A DNA stretch of 64,000 nt, taken from assembly GCF_022014495.1 (NCBI RefSeq), contig NZ_JAKLSQ010000013.1:1-64000 (forward strand). The letters are read 5' to 3'. The position numbers were made by a program, and so were the translations under genes. Origin of the DNA: Sandaracinobacteroides sayramensis. GTDB taxonomy: Bacteria > Pseudomonadota > Alphaproteobacteria > Sphingomonadales > Sphingomonadaceae. Position 1 is the first letter of the stretch. Each line of letters begins with the position of its first letter. The notes under the pieces were generated by a model. The model saw only the letters and a program-made list of their open reading frames with translations. It made no database searches and was not told the origin of the DNA. Positions 1-34,339 of the stretch are shown in pieces.

Positions 1-2328
1 AAGGAAAACAAAAATGAATCCTGGACACCTTCGCATTATCGCGTCCTCGCGATTAGCTGTCTTATGCGCAGCTGCGCATAACGTCCGGAAAGCGCCGGCA
101 TAGGCGTCGTAGATGCCGATCTGGCCGGGCGTCAGCCTGTGTTCGAGCATCTCATATTCGACGCCGTCGAACGACAGCGAGCGGGCCGCATAGAGGCCGA
201 GCGCCTTTAGGTCGCGTGCGAGAACCTCCATCGCCGCGACCCCGCCATCCTCGATCGCGGCGATGAACTCCGAGCGCGTCGAGAAGGGGAAGTCTTCACC
301 GCCCCACAGGCCGAGGCGCTGGGCGTAGCCGAGGTTCTGCACGGTGGTCGCGCCGGTCGCCGAGACATAGACGATGCGGGCATTCGGCAAGGCGTGCTGG
401 AGTCTGAGCCCGGCACGACCCTGTTGCGAAGGCACCTGATCGCCGCGCTCGCCTTTGCCACCGGCCGCATTGGTCATGGCGTGCGCCTCGTCGAACACGA
501 TCACGCCGTCAAAGTCCGCCCCCAGCCAGTCGACGATCTGCTGGACGCGGCTGACCTTCTCGCCGCGTTCCTGCGACCGCAGCGTGGCGTAGGTCGTGAA
601 CAACACGCCCGCATCGAGCCTGATCGGCGTGCCCTGGCGGAACCGGGACAGCGGCGTCACCAGCAGCCGTTCTTGCCCGAGCGCTTCCCAGTCGCGCATC
701 GCGTCCTGATGCAGGGTCTCCGACCGGCTCACCCAGACCGCGCGGCGGCGGCCTTTGAGCCAGTTGTCGAGGATGATGCCCGCAACCTGGCGGCCCTTGC
801 CGGCGCCGGTCCCGTCGCCCAACATCCAGCCACGCCGGAAGCGCACCGCGCTCTCGGCATCGTCTGGCGCGGCGGTGACGACATCCCAGGTCGGATCGAC
901 GCTCCACGATCCCGCCAGATGGTCGCCATGCGCTTCGCCCGCGAGAATGATGGATTCGAGCTGGGCATCAGACAATATGCCGTCAGCGATCAGCCGGGAC
1001 GGCAGCAGCGGACAATAAGACGGCCTGGGCGGCGCGACCGAGGCCATCGCCGCCGACTGGACCAGCGGCGTGGGGTGCGGCTTCGCGCCAGGGATATGGA
1101 TCGACTGGAGCCCATAGGGCTCATAGATCGCCTCGGTCAGCCGGCCGGCTTCGGCGGGAGTCCAGTCGATGGTCTCATAGGCCAGTTCGACGGCATCGGA
1201 CGCGCTGACCGGAACCGGCGCGGGGACGGTCACGATACGCGAGCCTGTGAGCTTTGCCGTCATCGCCGGCAGGGCGATCGGCGTGGCGGGCGGCGGTGCA
1301 TTGGGCGTGGGAGCGCGCGGCGGCATGAGGTCGAGCACCCAGCGTAGCAGCGTGGCGGTATCGGGCGCGACGCCCGGCGAGACCGGGAAGACCGTGAGGT
1401 CGTCGGCGGGGACGCGGTCGATCACGGTCAGCCGCGTGTCGATGGTGGTGCCGTGCTTCGCATAGACCCCGCCGTCGATCGCCGCCGAGAAGACCACGCG
1501 GCCGCGCTCCTGAAGTCGGAAAAAAGCTTCGGTCCAGGTGGGATTGTCGGGCGCGCAGCTTGCGCCGGTGATCGCGACCAGACGGCCGCCCGGCGCCAGA
1601 CGCGCCAGCGCCGAGCCGATATGGCGCAGCGCTGCGTCCTTCATGGTGCGATCGACATGCGCAACCGCCGAGAATGGCGGGTTCATCAGCACTACGGTGG
1701 GAATCAGGCTCGCGTCCAGATGATCATGGATATGCGCGGCGTTATGGCGGGTGACGGCGCAGTCGCCGAACAGCCCCGCCAGCACCTCGGCGCGGATCTC
1801 TGCCAGTTCATTGAGGATCAGACGCGCGCCCCGGCTCTCGGCATGGACGGCGAGTAGCCCGGTGCCGGCCGATGGTTCCAGCACGACGTCGCCGGGCCGG
1901 ATGGCGGCGGCGAGCGCCGCGACGACGCCGAGTCCGGCAGGCGTTGAGAATTGCTGCAATGTCTGGGAGGATTGGGATCGACGCGTGTGGGTCGGCAACA
2001 AGGCGCCGATCTTCTCGATCATCGCCAGCGCGGCTGCCGGAGAAGCGGATTTACGGAAAATCGCAGATCCGTATTTACGCAGGAACAGCACTTGCGCCGC
2101 CTCACAGGCGTCATAGACGGTCTTCCAGTCCCAGGTGCCGTCAGCATCGGAACCACCGAACGTCGCCTCCATGGCGAAGCGCAACGCACGCGCGTCGATG
2201 GCGCGGCCGCGTTCGAGGTCAGGCAGGATGAGATTGGCGGCGGCAAGGATCGCCTGGCCAGTCGCGGCGAAACCGGGCGCGGCAGGAAATAACGCCGCCG
2301 AACGGGTAGCGGATGCAGATGGAGTCAT
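1..2328 (-). CDS. Strawberry-notch-type helicase with N-terminal methyltransferase-like domain (partial, probably interrupted)
   Basis: The reading frame opens at ATG 2328 and stays open to the window edge (776 codons). Residues ~150-156 (EPSAGTG) and ~213 (NPPF) look like SAM-dependent N6-adenine methyltransferase motifs I and IV. Residues 504-511 (GDGTGAGK) form a Walker A and ~613-616 (DEAH) a Walker B, typical of strawberry-notch NTPases. A fused methyltransferase/helicase resembles the DarB antirestriction protein of phage P1, so protection of incoming DNA is a plausible role (inference). Family members are usually about twice this long. After residue ~747 (around position 88), just before the palindrome at 62-81, the sequence no longer looks like the family, which suggests an insertion has cut off the C-terminal helicase domain. 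It is the last gene of the minus-strand block and has a structured leader of its own. Confidence 0.8.
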   Translation of the reverse strand, partial: MTPSASATRSAALFPAAPGFAATGQAILAAANLILPDLERGRAIDARALRFAMEATFGGSDADGTWDWKTVYDACEAAQVLFLRKYGSAIFRKSASPAAALAMIEKIGALLPTHTRRSQSSQTLQQFSTPAGLGVVAALAAAIRPGDVVLEPSAGTGLLAVHAESRGARLILNELAEIRAEVLAGLFGDCAVTRHNAAHIHDHLDASLIPTVVLMNPPFSAVAHVDRTMKDAALRHIGSALARLAPGGRLVAITGASCAPDNPTWTEAFFRLQERGRVVFSAAIDGGVYAKHGTTIDTRLTVIDRVPADDLTVFPVSPGVAPDTATLLRWVLDLMPPRAPTPNAPPPATPIALPAMTAKLTGSRIVTVPAPVPVSASDAVELAYETIDWTPAEAGRLTEAIYEPYGLQSIHIPGAKPHPTPLVQSAAMASVAPPRPSYCPLLPSRLIADGILSDAQLESIILAGEAHGDHLAGSWSVDPTWDVVTAAPDDAESAVRFRRGWMLGDGTGAGKGRQVAGIILDNWLKGRRRAVWVSRSETLHQDAMRDWEALGQERLLVTPLSRFRQGTPIRLDAGVLFTTYATLRSQERGEKVSRVQQIVDWLGADFDGVIVFDEAHAMTNAAGGKGERGDQVPSQQGRAGLRLQHALPNARIVYVSATGATTVQNLGYAQRLGLWGGEDFPFSTRSEFIAAIEDGGVAAMEVLARDLKALGLYAARSLSFDGVEYEMLEHRLTPGQIGIYDAYAGAFRTLCAAAHKTANREDAIMRRCPGFIFVFL
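62..81. repeat. Perfect 20-bp palindrome, possible recombinase site
   Basis: The arms TTATGCGCAG and CTGCGCATAA are exact reverse complements. The half-site TGCGCATAA resembles the XerC-type arm of dif sites. The palindrome sits where the helicase reading frame (minus strand) stops looking like its family, so it may mark the end of an inserted element whose body lies to the left. A recombinase was not visible. Confidence 0.5.
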
Positions 2329-2450
2329 GAGAAATGTCCGAGGAGAGCGGGACTGGAGCAAGCCAGCGGATGCTCTCTCTCGATCCGGCAGGCTCGCCCC
2401 TTCCGGCCTGCCTCTTGCTCTGGTCGAGGCTCCAGCACCGCTAGCTATTG
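2329..2450 (-). promoter_or_regulatory. Structured leader of the helicase gene
   Basis: Read on the minus strand, this leader contains a hairpin with arms GCAGGC and GCCTGC, a purine-rich GAGAGAGAG box, and a second pair of complementary stretches before the ATG. The layout (arm, GA-box, arm, start codon) resembles the leaders before parB (6201-6305) and ardC (7286-7385), but the sequence match is weaker and no good Shine-Dalgarno follows the last arm. It could be a promoter, an RNA regulator or a single-strand promoter; the sequence alone does not decide. Confidence 0.4.
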
Positions 2451-4046: not shown

Positions 4047-6200
4047 CTATTCGGCTGCGATCGCATAGCCTTCGGACAGATCGTCCTCGTCAGCCGGTTG
4101 GTCGTCGTCCCCGCCGAGGAACGCGGGCAGTGCCTCGGCATCGGCATCGGCGGCCTCGTCCTGATCGACCGCCGCCGGATCGAACGCATCTTCGATCGCC
4201 GGCGTGCGGAGCGGTTCGGGCAACCAGTCCGCATCGGCCAGCAGGCGCTCGGCTTCGCGGGCCATGTCGCCCTTCTTGAGATGATCGATCAGGCCGGCCG
4301 TATGGTCGTCCCTGGCTTCGGCCACCGCGATCAGGATGCGCGGCTTGGCGACCCGGCCGAGATAATTCTCAACCGTCGGCTTCCAGCCCGCCGCCACCAT
4401 GTCGAGACCGACCGCACGCGCCAGCACATGGCTGTGCGCGAGCCGCCGCTCGACGCCATGTGCCGAGACGCGGCCGTCATAGCGGCTGGTCGCCTCCCAC
4501 AGCGCATTGACCCCGAACGCGGCGCAATGCGCGAACAGCGCCGCCTGATCGACGCCGTCGAGCAGCATCAGCGCGTCCCACAGGTCCTTGTCGGAATCGG
4601 GCAGCCGCTTCTCCCAGGCCTCATGGCGTGCGGCAATCGAGCGGGCCGATGAACTGTCCTTCATGCCCGGCGCCTGGTTCGCGAAGCTGGTGCGCGTGAC
4701 CGAGATGCCGACACAGGATTCGGTGCGGCCATGATAGAAGCTGGACAGCACCATGGCATGCAACACGGCGGCGAACGCCGTCGAAGGACTGGCGGCGAAC
4801 GCATCCTGCAAGGCAAGCGTGCGATGCGCGGTGAGTTCGGAGACCAGACGATCGGGCAGTGGCTTGATGATCTGCTCGTCATCATCATCCGGTTCGTCCA
4901 CAGCGACCCCGCCGACCGTGACGACGGTGGATCGGGCAGCCGGCTGCTGCGGGCCGATCGGGTCGACGGACTGATCGCCCTCAGCCTCATCGTCGCCCGG
5001 TTCGGCGACCTGCGGTTCATCCTCGGCGCGGACCCAGCCCCGTTCAACAAAGAGCGACCCGTCGGTGTCGAGGCTGACGAAAGCGCCGGCGATACCTATT
5101 TCCCGCGGATCATAGGTCCTCGGCCGTTCGATCAGGCCCGCCAGTTCCTCATCGATCGCTTCGATCCGCGCCGCCACGTCCTCCGGCAGTTCCTCGACAT
5201 CCTCATAGTTCGCCTCGATGGCGTTGCCCTCGGCGGTCAAGGCCTCGGCGCGCGCCGATTCCGCATCGGTGAGCGCCGCCGGATCGCTGTCGATCTCGCG
5301 CAGGCTGTTGAGATGGCCATAGGGCAGATCCACGGCCGCCGTGACCCACTTCCAGCCTTCGCCGCCGATCCGTTCGGCATCGGCCTGAAGCTTCGCAGCG
5401 ACCAGCGTGTCGAGAAGCGCGGCGTCCTGAAGCCAGCCGCCATCGTCGGCCTCGAACAGGTCGCGCAGCACGCACCCGCCGGCCTCGGCATAGGCGTCGA
5501 TGCCGACGAACAGCACCCGCTTGTCCGACGCGCGCACCGTGTTCTCGGTGAGGCGCGAGCGGATGAACGAGGATTCCTTGTTCCAGCTATGTGCGAGCAG
5601 CTCCCACACCTGTTCCTGACGGGCATGATCCTCGCTCACCGAGAAGGCCATCAACTGATCGAGGGTCATGCCGTCCTCGGCATAGATCTCGTGCAGCGCG
5701 GGCGACACCGACGCCAGCTTCAGGCGCTGGCGCACCACGGCGGGCGTGGTCATGAAGGTGGCGGCGATCGCCTCGATATCGTCGCCCTGGTCGACAAGGC
5801 GCTTCATGGAGCGGAACTGATCGAGCGGGTGCAACTGCTCGCGGTGCGTGTTCTCGGCAAGCGAGTCTTCCTCGGCCGAGATGGGATCGTTCGCATCCTT
5901 GACGATGCACGGCACCGGGGCGTTCTTCGCCAGCCGCTTGCGCTTCACCAGCAGTTCCAGCGCGCGAAAGCGCCGGCCGCCGGCAGGCAGATGGAACCGG
6001 CCGGTCTCCTGTCCCTCGTCATTGAGCGTCGGGCGGACGTTCAGGCTTTGCAGAAGACCACGCCGGGCGATGTCGTCGGCAAGCGCCTCGATCGAGACGC
6101 CGGCCTTCACGCGCCGGACATTGGACTGGGACAGGTCGATCAGATCGAGCGGGATGTCCCGCGCGCTGCTGAGGACGATCTTGGGGGCAGCTTTTGCCAT
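4047..6200 (-). CDS. Large ParB/Srx-domain protein (chromosome/plasmid partition family)
   Basis: The 717-aa protein has an N-terminal ParB/sulfiredoxin fold: NVRR at 27-30, GGRRFRAL at 74-81 (ParB box II) and ENTHR at 116-120 (box III), followed by a helix-turn-helix-like stretch at about 140-165. The remaining ~550 residues are an acidic, family-specific extension found in the large ParB-like proteins of plasmids and ICEs. Such proteins are CTP/DNA-binding factors or nucleases, and the exact role is unknown. No ParA is next to it, so classical partitioning is not shown. The start at ATG 6200 follows a GGAG Shine-Dalgarno and is preceded by the shared structured leader. A longer frame to 6866 runs across that leader and through ardC in another frame and was discarded. 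Confidence 0.85.
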   Translation of the reverse strand: MAKAAPKIVLSSARDIPLDLIDLSQSNVRRVKAGVSIEALADDIARRGLLQSLNVRPTLNDEGQETGRFHLPAGGRRFRALELLVKRKRLAKNAPVPCIVKDANDPISAEEDSLAENTHREQLHPLDQFRSMKRLVDQGDDIEAIAATFMTTPAVVRQRLKLASVSPALHEIYAEDGMTLDQLMAFSVSEDHARQEQVWELLAHSWNKESSFIRSRLTENTVRASDKRVLFVGIDAYAEAGGCVLRDLFEADDGGWLQDAALLDTLVAAKLQADAERIGGEGWKWVTAAVDLPYGHLNSLREIDSDPAALTDAESARAEALTAEGNAIEANYEDVEELPEDVAARIEAIDEELAGLIERPRTYDPREIGIAGAFVSLDTDGSLFVERGWVRAEDEPQVAEPGDDEAEGDQSVDPIGPQQPAARSTVVTVGGVAVDEPDDDDEQIIKPLPDRLVSELTAHRTLALQDAFAASPSTAFAAVLHAMVLSSFYHGRTESCVGISVTRTSFANQAPGMKDSSSARSIAARHEAWEKRLPDSDKDLWDALMLLDGVDQAALFAHCAAFGVNALWEATSRYDGRVSAHGVERRLAHSHVLARAVGLDMVAAGWKPTVENYLGRVAKPRILIAVAEARDDHTAGLIDHLKKGDMAREAERLLADADWLPEPLRTPAIEDAFDPAAVDQDEAADADAEALPAFLGGDDDQPADEDDLSEGYAIAAE

Positions 6201-6305
6201 GTCGGTTACTCCATGACGGGTCGCCGGGAGACTCTCTCTCGGCTGCAAGCCCGTCACAAAGCCGAAGGCCATCCCCTCACTCTCCCTCCGGCCTGGCCCC
6301 CGACG
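6201..6305 (-). promoter_or_regulatory. Shared structured leader (copy B) before parB-like gene
   Basis: On the minus strand the arms GACGGG (6255-6250) and CCCGTC (6220-6215) are 29 nt apart, with GAGAGAGAG between them. The 3' arm is followed two bases later by the GGAG Shine-Dalgarno of the parB-like gene. A GAGTGAGGGGATGGCC stretch lies just upstream of the first arm. The same arrangement precedes ardC (7286-7385) and the ardC stump (21311-21405). Confidence 0.6.
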
Positions 6306-6328
6306 CCAGCGCTGGAAGGATGAGCACC

Positions 6329-7285
6329 TCACGCCGCCTTCCGCTGGATTTCCGCATCCGCGACCGCAGACTGATCGGCGGCGTCCTCGTCCCGGAAGTC
6401 GAGGAGGAAGTTGGCGGCCTTCGAGGCGGCTCTGGCGGCGCGGACGATGGCCCGATTGTCCTCGCGGATGATATCGAGCCAGGAGCCCAGGTAATCGGCG
6501 TGCCGGACGGTGGGCACGATACCGAGCGCGGCGCAGACGAAAGCACCCGCCATTTCCGCGATCAGCTCCTCGCGTCCATATTCCTTGGATCCGAACGCGC
6601 CGGTCTGATCGCGGTCGAGCCGGCTTCGGCCCCCGACCCAGTGCGATAGCTCGTGAAATGCCGTCCGATGCCAGTTTATGGGGTCGAAATATGCGTCCGG
6701 TCGCGGCACCTGCACATAATCCTGACCCGGAGCATAGAAGGCGCGGTCGCCGCCAATACGGAAGTCGGCGCCGGTCGCGGCGATCAGCGTCTCGGCTTCG
6801 GGCAGAATAAGCCCTTCGGGCAAGGGCGGCGGCGGAGCGGCGATCCGTTCGGGCAATCCCTCGCACTGGTCCGTCGAAAAGACGGTGTAGCGCTTGAGGA
6901 AGGGGATCGAGCCGGGTTCGCGGCCATTTTCGCTGGCGCGGCGCCGTTCGCTGTCCGGCGTGAAACGATGGGCATAGACGACAGTCGTGCCGTGCTCGCC
7001 CTTGCGGACATTGCCGCCCAGCGCGAGTGCCTGGCGGAAGGTCAGAAATGTGTTGGTTGAGAAGCCATTGGCGACCACGGTGTCCCAGAGGATCAGGATG
7101 TTGATCCCGGAATAACGATCACCGGTCTTGCCGTTGCGCGGCATGTCGAGGGACGCCTTCGACGTGGCCCAGGGCTGAACCCACGGCACCCGTCCGGCCT
7201 CTAGTTCGGCGATGATCTTGTCGGTGATGGACTGATAGAGGTCTGTCCGTTCGCCGTTGGTGCGAGATGTGGTGGTGCGCGCCAT
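6329..7285 (-). CDS. ardC: ArdC-family antirestriction protein
   Basis: The 318-aa protein has the N-terminal ssDNA-binding region of ArdC (residues 13-110, with YQSITDKIIAELEAG and GNVRKGEHG) and a C-terminal zincin-like domain with HELSH at 211-215 and a following REELIAEMAGAF helix (239-250) that should supply the third zinc ligand. ArdC proteins bind single-stranded DNA and protect incoming plasmid DNA from restriction, typically early after conjugation. The start follows a GGAG placed 8 bases upstream, right after the 3' arm of the shared leader. The gene lies just upstream of parB with a 128-bp gap that holds the next leader copy. Confidence 0.9.
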   Translation of the reverse strand: MARTTTSRTNGERTDLYQSITDKIIAELEAGRVPWVQPWATSKASLDMPRNGKTGDRYSGINILILWDTVVANGFSTNTFLTFRQALALGGNVRKGEHGTTVVYAHRFTPDSERRRASENGREPGSIPFLKRYTVFSTDQCEGLPERIAAPPPPLPEGLILPEAETLIAATGADFRIGGDRAFYAPGQDYVQVPRPDAYFDPINWHRTAFHELSHWVGGRSRLDRDQTGAFGSKEYGREELIAEMAGAFVCAALGIVPTVRHADYLGSWLDIIREDNRAIVRAARAASKAANFLLDFRDEDAADQSAVADAEIQRKAA

Positions 7286-7385
7286 TGCGTTTCTCCGCGA
7301 CGGGCCGGCATCGGGCCACTCCCTCTGCCTTTCAACCCGTCACGGATAATCCGGTCATCCTCTCACTCTCGGGGCGTTGCGGGGC
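7286..7385 (-). promoter_or_regulatory. Shared structured leader (copy A) before ardC
   Basis: The arms GACGGG (minus, 7341-7336) and CCCGTC (7304-7299) are 31 nt apart and enclose a GAGGGAG box. The 3' arm is followed two bases later by GGAG, the ardC Shine-Dalgarno. The upstream flank GAGAGTGAGAGGATGACCGG is nearly the same as in copies B and C. The sequence closest to this is the leader at 21311-21405, which also shares GCAACGCC further upstream. Confidence 0.65.
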
Positions 7386-21156: not shown

Positions 21157-21294
21157 ATGCACAGAATGTTTGCAGCTTTGCTGGCTGCCGCGTCTTGCGT
21201 CTCCGTGGCGCAGGCACAGGATATTGTCTCGGCAGTTCCCTCAGCGGGACCATCGCTTAGAATGTCGGCCGGTCGCTCGCTGCGCGCCGCCTAG
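21157..21294 (+). pseudogene. Truncated czcC-like gene (signal peptide only)
   Basis: ATG 21157 opens a frame for a signal peptide (MHRMFAALLAAASCVSVAQAQ) like those of CzcC outer-membrane efflux proteins, then runs about 15 more residues before reading into antisense of an ardC-like start and ending at 21294. Full CzcC is over 400 residues. The gene was cut at about 21256-21262, where an ardC-type fragment begins on the other strand. Confidence 0.6.
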
Positions 21295-21310
21295 GGAATG
21301 AACGTGCCAT
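21257..21310 (-). pseudogene. ardC stump (first 17 codons)
   Basis: ATG 21310 follows GGAG and a copy of the shared ardC/parB leader, and begins MARSFPRRRAASDRP, which resembles ArdC N-termini. The frame stops after 17 residues at TAA (21259-21257) because the gene is joined to the truncated czcC-like sequence. It is a scar of recombination between two accessory modules. Confidence 0.6.
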
Positions 21311-21405
21311 CGCATATCTCCGCGACGGATTGATCTGGAGCCTCTCTCCAGACGCTCAACCCGTCGCGAAATCCCGGCCTTCCTCTCACTCTCACGGAGG
21401 CGTTG
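21311..21405 (-). promoter_or_regulatory. Shared structured leader (copy C), now without its gene
   Basis: The arms GACGGG (minus, 21365-21360) and TCCGTC (21329-21324) are 30 nt apart and enclose an inner perfect hairpin CTGGAG/CTCCAG with a GGAGAGAGG box. The 3' arm is followed two bases later by GGAG. Upstream GTGAGAGGAAGGCCGGGAT and GCAACGCCTCCG match the ardC leader at 7286-7385. Confidence 0.65.
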
Positions 21406-21455
21406 CGGGCGGGCTGTGCGAGAACTCCCGCCTTGGTGAGCTGCCCCGGGGCCCT

Positions 21456-34064: not shown

Positions 34065-34141
34065 TGGCGCACCCGGCAGGATTCGAACCTGCGACCTACG
34101 CCTTCGGAGGGCGTCACTCTATCCAGCTGAGCTACGGGTGC
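34065..34141 (-). tRNA. tRNA-Arg (CCG), complete, with encoded CCA
   Basis: The 77-nt gene folds fully: acceptor GCACCCG/CGGGTGC, D stem GCTC/GAGT, anticodon stem ACGCC/GGCGT with loop CTCCGAA (anticodon CCG), T stem GCAGG/CCTGC with TTCGAAT, discriminator G and an encoded CCA. Its anticodon stem differs from that of the truncated copy at 34298-34339, so it is not a simple duplicate and may have come with the mobile element. Confidence 0.97.
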
Positions 34142-34297
34142 TTGAGGCTAAAAGCCCTATGAAATCGATCGGGCCGGGTCAATCTGATCCCGGAATCCGT
34201 GGTGAGATTTTGGTGAGTTTAGTTCGCCCGGCCTTTCTTCACTCTTTCAACCCACGGAAAAATCTATACAAAAATCTTGCTTTGACGAGGGACCGTA

Positions 34298-34339
<42 letters not shown>

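Follow-up and report, generated by a model that had tools for sequence, protein, structure and literature searches.

In the 64,000-nucleotide stretch of DNA analyzed here (the window), ardC and parB are each preceded by a copy of one element of about 76 nt, and this element is a real, widespread RNA family. We consider it probable, at roughly two chances in three, that the element is a cis-acting structured 5' mRNA leader that gives translational control and is opened by some factor; this reading leans on alignments and predicted folds. From 5' to 3', the element consists of an AGAG-NN-AGAG box, a spacer, a stem (P1) enclosing a hairpin (P2), and the start codon. Its conservation was assessed in alignment A6, which contains 131 rows, namely the matches at E 1e-8 or better, with weaker matches and some sources left out. 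The unpaired box AGAG..AGAG is exact in 102 of the 131 rows. The spacer between the box and P1 measures 11-14 nt (13 nt in 106/131 rows) and can join a small hairpin, P0. An asymmetric strand like TTGAGG lies between the 5' arm of P1 and P2, whose loop reads AGAGG or AGAGT in 108/131 rows, and the 3' arm of P1 contains the Shine-Dalgarno (SD) sequence GGAG itself. The pairing of P1 extends outward past GACGGG/CCCGTC and joins U-YYGUGACGGG with CCCGUC(GC or AU)GGA. All three copies in the window lie on the minus strand (7370-7292, 6284-6208, and 21393-21317):

7292..7370, minus strand: copy 1, the ardC leader; 71.1 bits with covariance model R2; box at 7369-7360 (AGAGTGAGAG), P1/P2 hairpin at about 7346-7293, SD GGAG at 7296-7293, ATG at 7285.
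6329..7285, minus strand: ardC, 318 aa, with an ArdC N-terminal domain (PF08401) and a zincin-like metallopeptidase domain (PF18818).
6208..6284, minus strand: copy 2, the parB leader; 67.8 bits with R2; P1 arms at 6261-6250 (CTTTGTGACGGG) and 6220-6209 (CCCGTCATGGAG), SD at 6212-6209, ATG at 6200.
4047..6200, minus strand: parB-like gene, 717 aa, with ParB_N (PF02195).
21317..21393, minus strand: copy 3, the orphan; 74.4 bits with R2; intact hairpin, SD at 21321-21318, ATG at 21310, no long gene downstream.

The first-pass annotation had described three leaders that share an upstream box, GACGGG/CCCGTC arms, a GA-rich box in the loop, and GGAG two bases after the 3' arm, and all of these features are present. 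The arms are separated by 29, 31, and 30 nt in the ardC, parB, and orphan copies, respectively, and the 3' arm of the orphan copy reads TCCGTC, closed by a G-U pair. Two points of that description needed refinement: the loop that holds the GA-rich box is itself the conserved hairpin P2, and the hairpin, which does adjoin the ribosome site, in fact encloses it, as the stem runs through GGAG. The reading frames downstream of the orphan copy are only 17-24 codons long (window 21293-21450), and this copy is perhaps the remnant or scar of a lost gene. An exact pattern with arms and GGAG has five matches in the 3.8-Mb genome and one match for the reversed control; thus, its occurrence is not due to chance. 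The fold energies of this genome's own copies differ from those of shuffled sequences by z of -2.5 to -5.5. Other repeats are also present in the window. A palindromic repeat with the core CGTCACCCCGGGCTTGACCCGGGGTCCAGC occurs in five dispersed copies (36908, 44210, 45817, 55237, and 60450), and a tRNA-Arg gene is accompanied, 198 nt away, by an 88% copy of 49 nt of its sequence (34093-34141 and 34291-34339), which could mark an integration site.

A relaxed pattern identified eight strong copies in this genome, five of them outside the window: a DUF932-like gene and a parB gene on contig 1 and ardC, parB, and a 182-aa gene on contig 14 add to the ardC, parB, and orphan copies of the window. 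Covariance model R1 was built from these same eight copies, so their matches (75.7-89.1 bits) arise by construction, and the weight rests on the gap to the next match in the genome (23 bits) and on other genomes. Matches were found in 49 of 296 genomes of the order at E 0.001 (21 of 80 genera), in 29 of 385 genomes of the class at E 0.01, and, with the second model R2, in 35 of 398 genomes of a phylum sample, where every match fell in the same class or closer; the genome studied here is counted in all three totals, and some genomes recur. Among plasmids, blastn matched 128 records with the 184-nt ardC leader region as query, 16 of them at a query coverage of 80% or more, and 67 records with the 106-nt parB leader region, 32 of them at that coverage; partial matches of this kind do not necessarily contain the whole element. 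No match to the parB leader was found in phage records. The covariance model search proposed in the first-pass annotation thus recovered the element in many genomes and, using R2, in all eight plasmid records with a leader match that were examined (64.7-92.8 bits): Agrobacterium pAtK224b, Ketogulonicigenium pYP1, Sphingopyxis pMC4, Aminobacter pANY103b, Rhizobium pRL7, a Rhizobium sp. X9 plasmid, a Xanthobacter plasmid, and a 6.5-kb Sphingomonas plasmid. The last of these (NZ_CP155764.1, 6542 bp) carries the element at L140:3344-3419 (87.7 bits) and four annotated genes; no establishment gene is named among them, and none of the four directly follows the element. Ketogulonicigenium and this genome share 96% identity in the 184-nt ardC leader region.

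No Rfam family matches the element. Rfam 15 at the gathering score identified only a tRNA in the whole window; around the leaders, no relevant match appeared up to E 10, and in five related loci no match fell at a leader. Matches to lncRNA, miRNA, snoRNA, IRES, sRNA (Atu_C3), and SAM families were dismissed as chance, with E >1 and scores far below the gathering scores.

The paired arms of the element have changed together. Pairs with a change on both sides number 7 of 19 in the eight own copies, 15 of 19 in 59 copies, and 17 of 19 in 126 distinct copies, in which P1 alone accounts for 9 of its 11 pairs; examples in P1 include A-U to G-C and C-G to U-A. The 126 distinct copies contain 170 compensatory cells, compared with a mean of 44.7 after shuffling (none of 500 shuffles reached the true value) and with at most 38 when the partners were slid by 1-3 columns. 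Alignment A6 was fitted to the covariance model and therefore leans toward the model's structure, so an unconstrained fold was needed as an independent test. RNAalifold, given no structure and a MAFFT alignment of 42 diverse copies (<80% identity; 43 were chosen, and L043 was left out of this alignment), returned only this hairpin, with the GG of the SD in the stem and 15 of 19 pairs changed on both sides. The first-pass annotation had named two outcomes that would speak against a functional RNA structure: arms without compensatory changes among homologs and copies that all descend from one recent duplication. On the first count, changes on both sides of the arms are found across many genomes; on the second, the copies precede several gene families in many families of the class.

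The position of the stem relative to the start codon is nearly fixed: GGAG lies 7, 8, or 9 nt from the start in 64, 29, and 18 of 122 copies, respectively (111/122 together). The pairs at the two Gs of the SD are formed in 123/126 and 124/125 cells and the pair at its A in 85/117. When the eight own copies are folded to their energy minimum, six have all four bases of GGAG paired, one has three, and one has two. We also predicted the accessibility of the SD from 110 nt before to 40 nt after the start, using as controls ORFs with an SD-like motif. The median unpaired probability was 0.084 for 122 leaders versus 0.348 for 145 controls; values of 0.1 or less were obtained for 65 leaders and 28 controls, and values above 0.5 for 2 leaders and 44 controls. 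The element thus shows two features of an SD-sequestering cis-regulatory RNA, a conserved stem that takes in the SD and compensatory changes in that stem.

Some copies, including ardC and DUF932 leaders, are also preceded by a conserved 5' module of ~80 nt, which comprises a palindrome, GGGGAAAGCCTTCCCC, a second hairpin, and CTGCGGGGAGACCCCGCAACGCCCC; besides the palindrome, two stretches of the module look hairpin-like. We found 29 such modules (30 entries, one of which was empty at a locus edge and left out), for example with the element copies L006:17266-17341 and L008:10899-10976. A palindrome of this kind (GGGGAA-AGCC-TTCCCC) and the high primary conservation of the box would suit a double-stranded DNA site, kept as an operator for a DNA-binding protein or as a hot spot for recombination and gene shuffling. 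Such a site is extremely unlikely to account for the element, as neither compensatory base-pair changes nor near-fixed spacing between the SD and the start would be expected of it.

The proteins encoded behind the 126 distinct copies form clusters of 54 ParB-like, 31 DUF932-like, 23 ArdC, and 3 ArdA proteins and 2 members of the 182-aa family; these names rest on scanned members, and the DUF932 match is below the Pfam cut-off. The gene behind the element in pAtK224b is annotated as DUF932. The remaining singles are one AlpA-like protein, one 305-aa protein with no Pfam match, and small unknowns, and 4 of the 126 copies are followed by no ORF or a short one. The copy before the AlpA-like gene (L083:2045-2119, minus strand) indicates that the element does not precede anti-defense genes only. 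In pYP1 and pMC4, the genes follow one another on one strand in the order leader-ardC, DUF2958, leader-parB, and small genes (one with a leader), with a strawberry-notch helicase, toprim, and DUF736 after the small genes, and parts of this order are common to pAtK224b and pRL7. In pAtK224b, the genes with the element run toward a DUF3363 gene located ~15 kb further on, on the same strand; we take DUF3363 to be a relaxase family. We infer that this gene block is the leading region.

The first-pass annotation had offered two readings of the hairpin, a cis-acting RNA switch and a single-strand promoter used when the element enters as single-stranded DNA. The mismatches that the stem tolerates bear on this choice: G-U holds as a pair in RNA, and the same pair is A-C in the opposite strand. 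Outside the SD pairs, the 131 rows depart from Watson-Crick pairing in P1 at 134 G-U, 5 A-C, and 12 other cells, and the 43 diverse rows do so at 40, 2, and 7, respectively. Pairs involving the SD (59 G-U, 3 A-C, and 35 other cells in 131 rows) prove little alone, because the SD must stay GGAG, but the rest of P1 shows the same bias. In P2, there are 130 G-U, 36 A-C, and 23 other cells (131 rows), and a single pair accounts for most of the A-C cells (26 of 32 in alignment A5). In all these counts, related rows are not independent events. Judged by these sequences, the fold seems to be kept in the coding-sense strand, and the excess of G-U in P1 favors RNA over a promoter folded in a template T-strand.

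A promoter of the Frpo/ssi kind, in which a hairpin in the incoming T-strand recruits RNA polymerase, would fit the direction of the pAtK224b genes described above, and plasmid leading regions are enriched in anti-restriction genes, according to the available text of PMC11541004, whose main text does not name ArdC. We nevertheless find it very unlikely here. Besides the tolerated mismatches, which are mostly G-U on the coding strand and would be A-C in a template T-strand, the SD belongs to the conserved stem, and a search for sigma-70-like -35/-10 hexamers in the element gave a best score of 6.49 out of 12 versus 6.50 in shuffles, with none of 43 copies reaching 9. Thus, the promoter half of the earlier suggestion is disfavored, and the half that proposed a cis-acting RNA gains from the compensatory changes, the SD in the stem, and the near-fixed distance to the start.

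A switch also calls for an alternative state, and P0 may provide one. This hairpin overlaps the anti-SD strand. In the 43 diverse copies, its energy is -4.07 with their own strands versus -3.30 with swapped strands (reached in 0 of 200 swaps), the anti-SD is paired in P0 with a value of 0.686 versus 0.604 (0 of 300 swaps), and the predicted probability of P0 exceeds 0.5 in 29 of 43. A competing P0 hairpin is therefore likely in many copies, not in all, as far as folding predictions go. A hairpin around the AGAG box itself, in which the second AGAG would pair with an upstream CUCU, was rejected as a general feature (0.458 own versus 0.461 swapped in the 98 copies whose box fits the pattern); it is visible in some parB-type copies. 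By eye, we saw no link between the type of box (GA or TG between the AGAGs) and the type of anti-SD. A mini-ORF in P1 (GTG-ACG-GGT-TGA) was discarded, since its stop is missing in many copies (by eye), and CsrA, Hfq, and TRAP motifs were discarded because the box does not appear to fit their consensus.

The same box recurs in another type of leader, found in the window in front of a helicase gene:

1..2328, minus strand: helicase gene, truncated by the end of the contig, with 776 aa visible; AAA_34 (PF13872).
2329..2422, minus strand: helicase leader, type II; AGAGCAAGAGG box and a long hairpin with a GAGAGAGAG loop.

This leader had been described as similar but weaker. The AGAG box and the GAGAGAGAG loop are indeed shared, but the stem is different, and the leader was rejected as a plain copy of the element; it scores 14.7 bits (E 0.03) with R2, and the segment as cut in the first-pass annotation (2329-2450) has z of -0.4 against shuffles. 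The same box, GAGAGAGAG loop, and long stem occur in type II helicase leaders at nine loci (window 2329-2422, L008 ~17597, L137 ~24720, L138 ~24711, and five more). In the consensus fold of the nine, a CUCU just upstream of the SD/start region is the partner of the box's second half, single folds vary, and the SD appears, by eye, to be left outside the stem. Sharing of the box by two different folds hints at a factor common to both.

We propose the following mechanism. P1, extended by P2, would pair the SD GGAG with the anti-SD strand (U-Y-Y-G), and this conserved stem would keep translation low by default. A trans-acting protein or RNA, most likely, would then read the unpaired AGAG motifs in the box and in the P2 loop; alternatively, a kinetic window during transcription could serve as the trigger. 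The trigger would move the anti-SD strand into the upstream hairpin P0 or melt P1 and thereby free the SD. Because the same element stands before each gene, ardC, parB, DUF932, ardA, and others would share one translational regulon of an establishment island, and the production of costly anti-defense proteins would be confined to a brief period, most plausibly right after entry. More specifically, in alphaproteobacterial ICEs and plasmids these mRNAs might be shut in the resident state and opened on entry into a new cell by an AGAG-reading factor. Such control would amount to translational zygotic induction and would embrace both type I (SD in the stem) and type II leaders; we hold this tentative proposal to be possible but less likely than not.

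The element could also be a passive part of the mRNA that does not act as a regulated switch but imposes constant low translation, shields the 5' end, or serves as a site of RNase III cleavage. For this, a long imperfect stem located at the SD would be enough, and no ligand or factor was found in a survey of neighbor genes at 33 loci, where only parB was near-universal (27/33) and a near-universal neighbor as regulator was consequently set aside. Yet a mere stem would have no need of the unpaired AGAG motifs, whose conservation among diverse copies is strong, and the box recurs in the differently folded helicase leaders; we therefore regard a passive role as unlikely and prefer translational control by an opening leader.

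The prevailing view is that anti-restriction genes act immediately on entry and are silenced afterward. The known routes to such transient expression are single-strand promoters and repressor dilution, and at least one route, that of EGeRS1, is still open in the available text of PMC8708921. In RP4, zygotic induction is described without identified single-strand promoters in the part of PMC7314908 at hand. In many alphaproteobacteria, a leader common to ArdC, ParB, DUF932, ArdA, and uncharacterized genes would add another answer that can be tested. The leader is also a handle for searches, as the uncharacterized genes behind the element are candidate anti-defense genes.

The terms antirestriction, anti-restriction, ArdC, and ParB are absent from the main texts of three papers on RNA discovery (PMC11109978, PMC8632094, and PMC6429828). 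In agreement with the first-pass annotation, which knew of no named description, we found none in the literature searched, which covers only part of what is published; within that scope, the element appears to be a translation switch that has not been described before. Leaders that sequester the SD, such as riboswitch expression platforms and the lambda N leader, resemble the element in their stem of anti-SD and SD and perhaps in an alternative hairpin. The element differs from such leaders in general in that it has no known aptamer and its regulon consists of mobile establishment genes. It resembles EGeRS1 of the pLS20 family in Bacillus, a repeated structured sequence that lies directly before the ribosome-binding sites of ardC and of four other operons of one conjugative element, that contains no constitutive promoter found so far, and whose mechanism is left open (PMC8708921, available text). 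On the other hand, EGeRS1 is 420-751 bp long with many inverted repeats, compared with ~76 nt here; in the same text, its consensus fold is given without reported SD pairing or compensatory changes. Frpo/ssi is similar in that a folded sequence controls anti-defense genes of the leading region, but it acts as DNA with -35/-10 signals in the fold (PMC11541004, available text), and the element has no such signal. STAXI, as presented in the accessible part of PMC2864571, is likewise a structured motif near genes for antirestriction and single-stranded DNA-binding proteins; it is built of repeated pseudoknots, whereas the element described here is a single hairpin.
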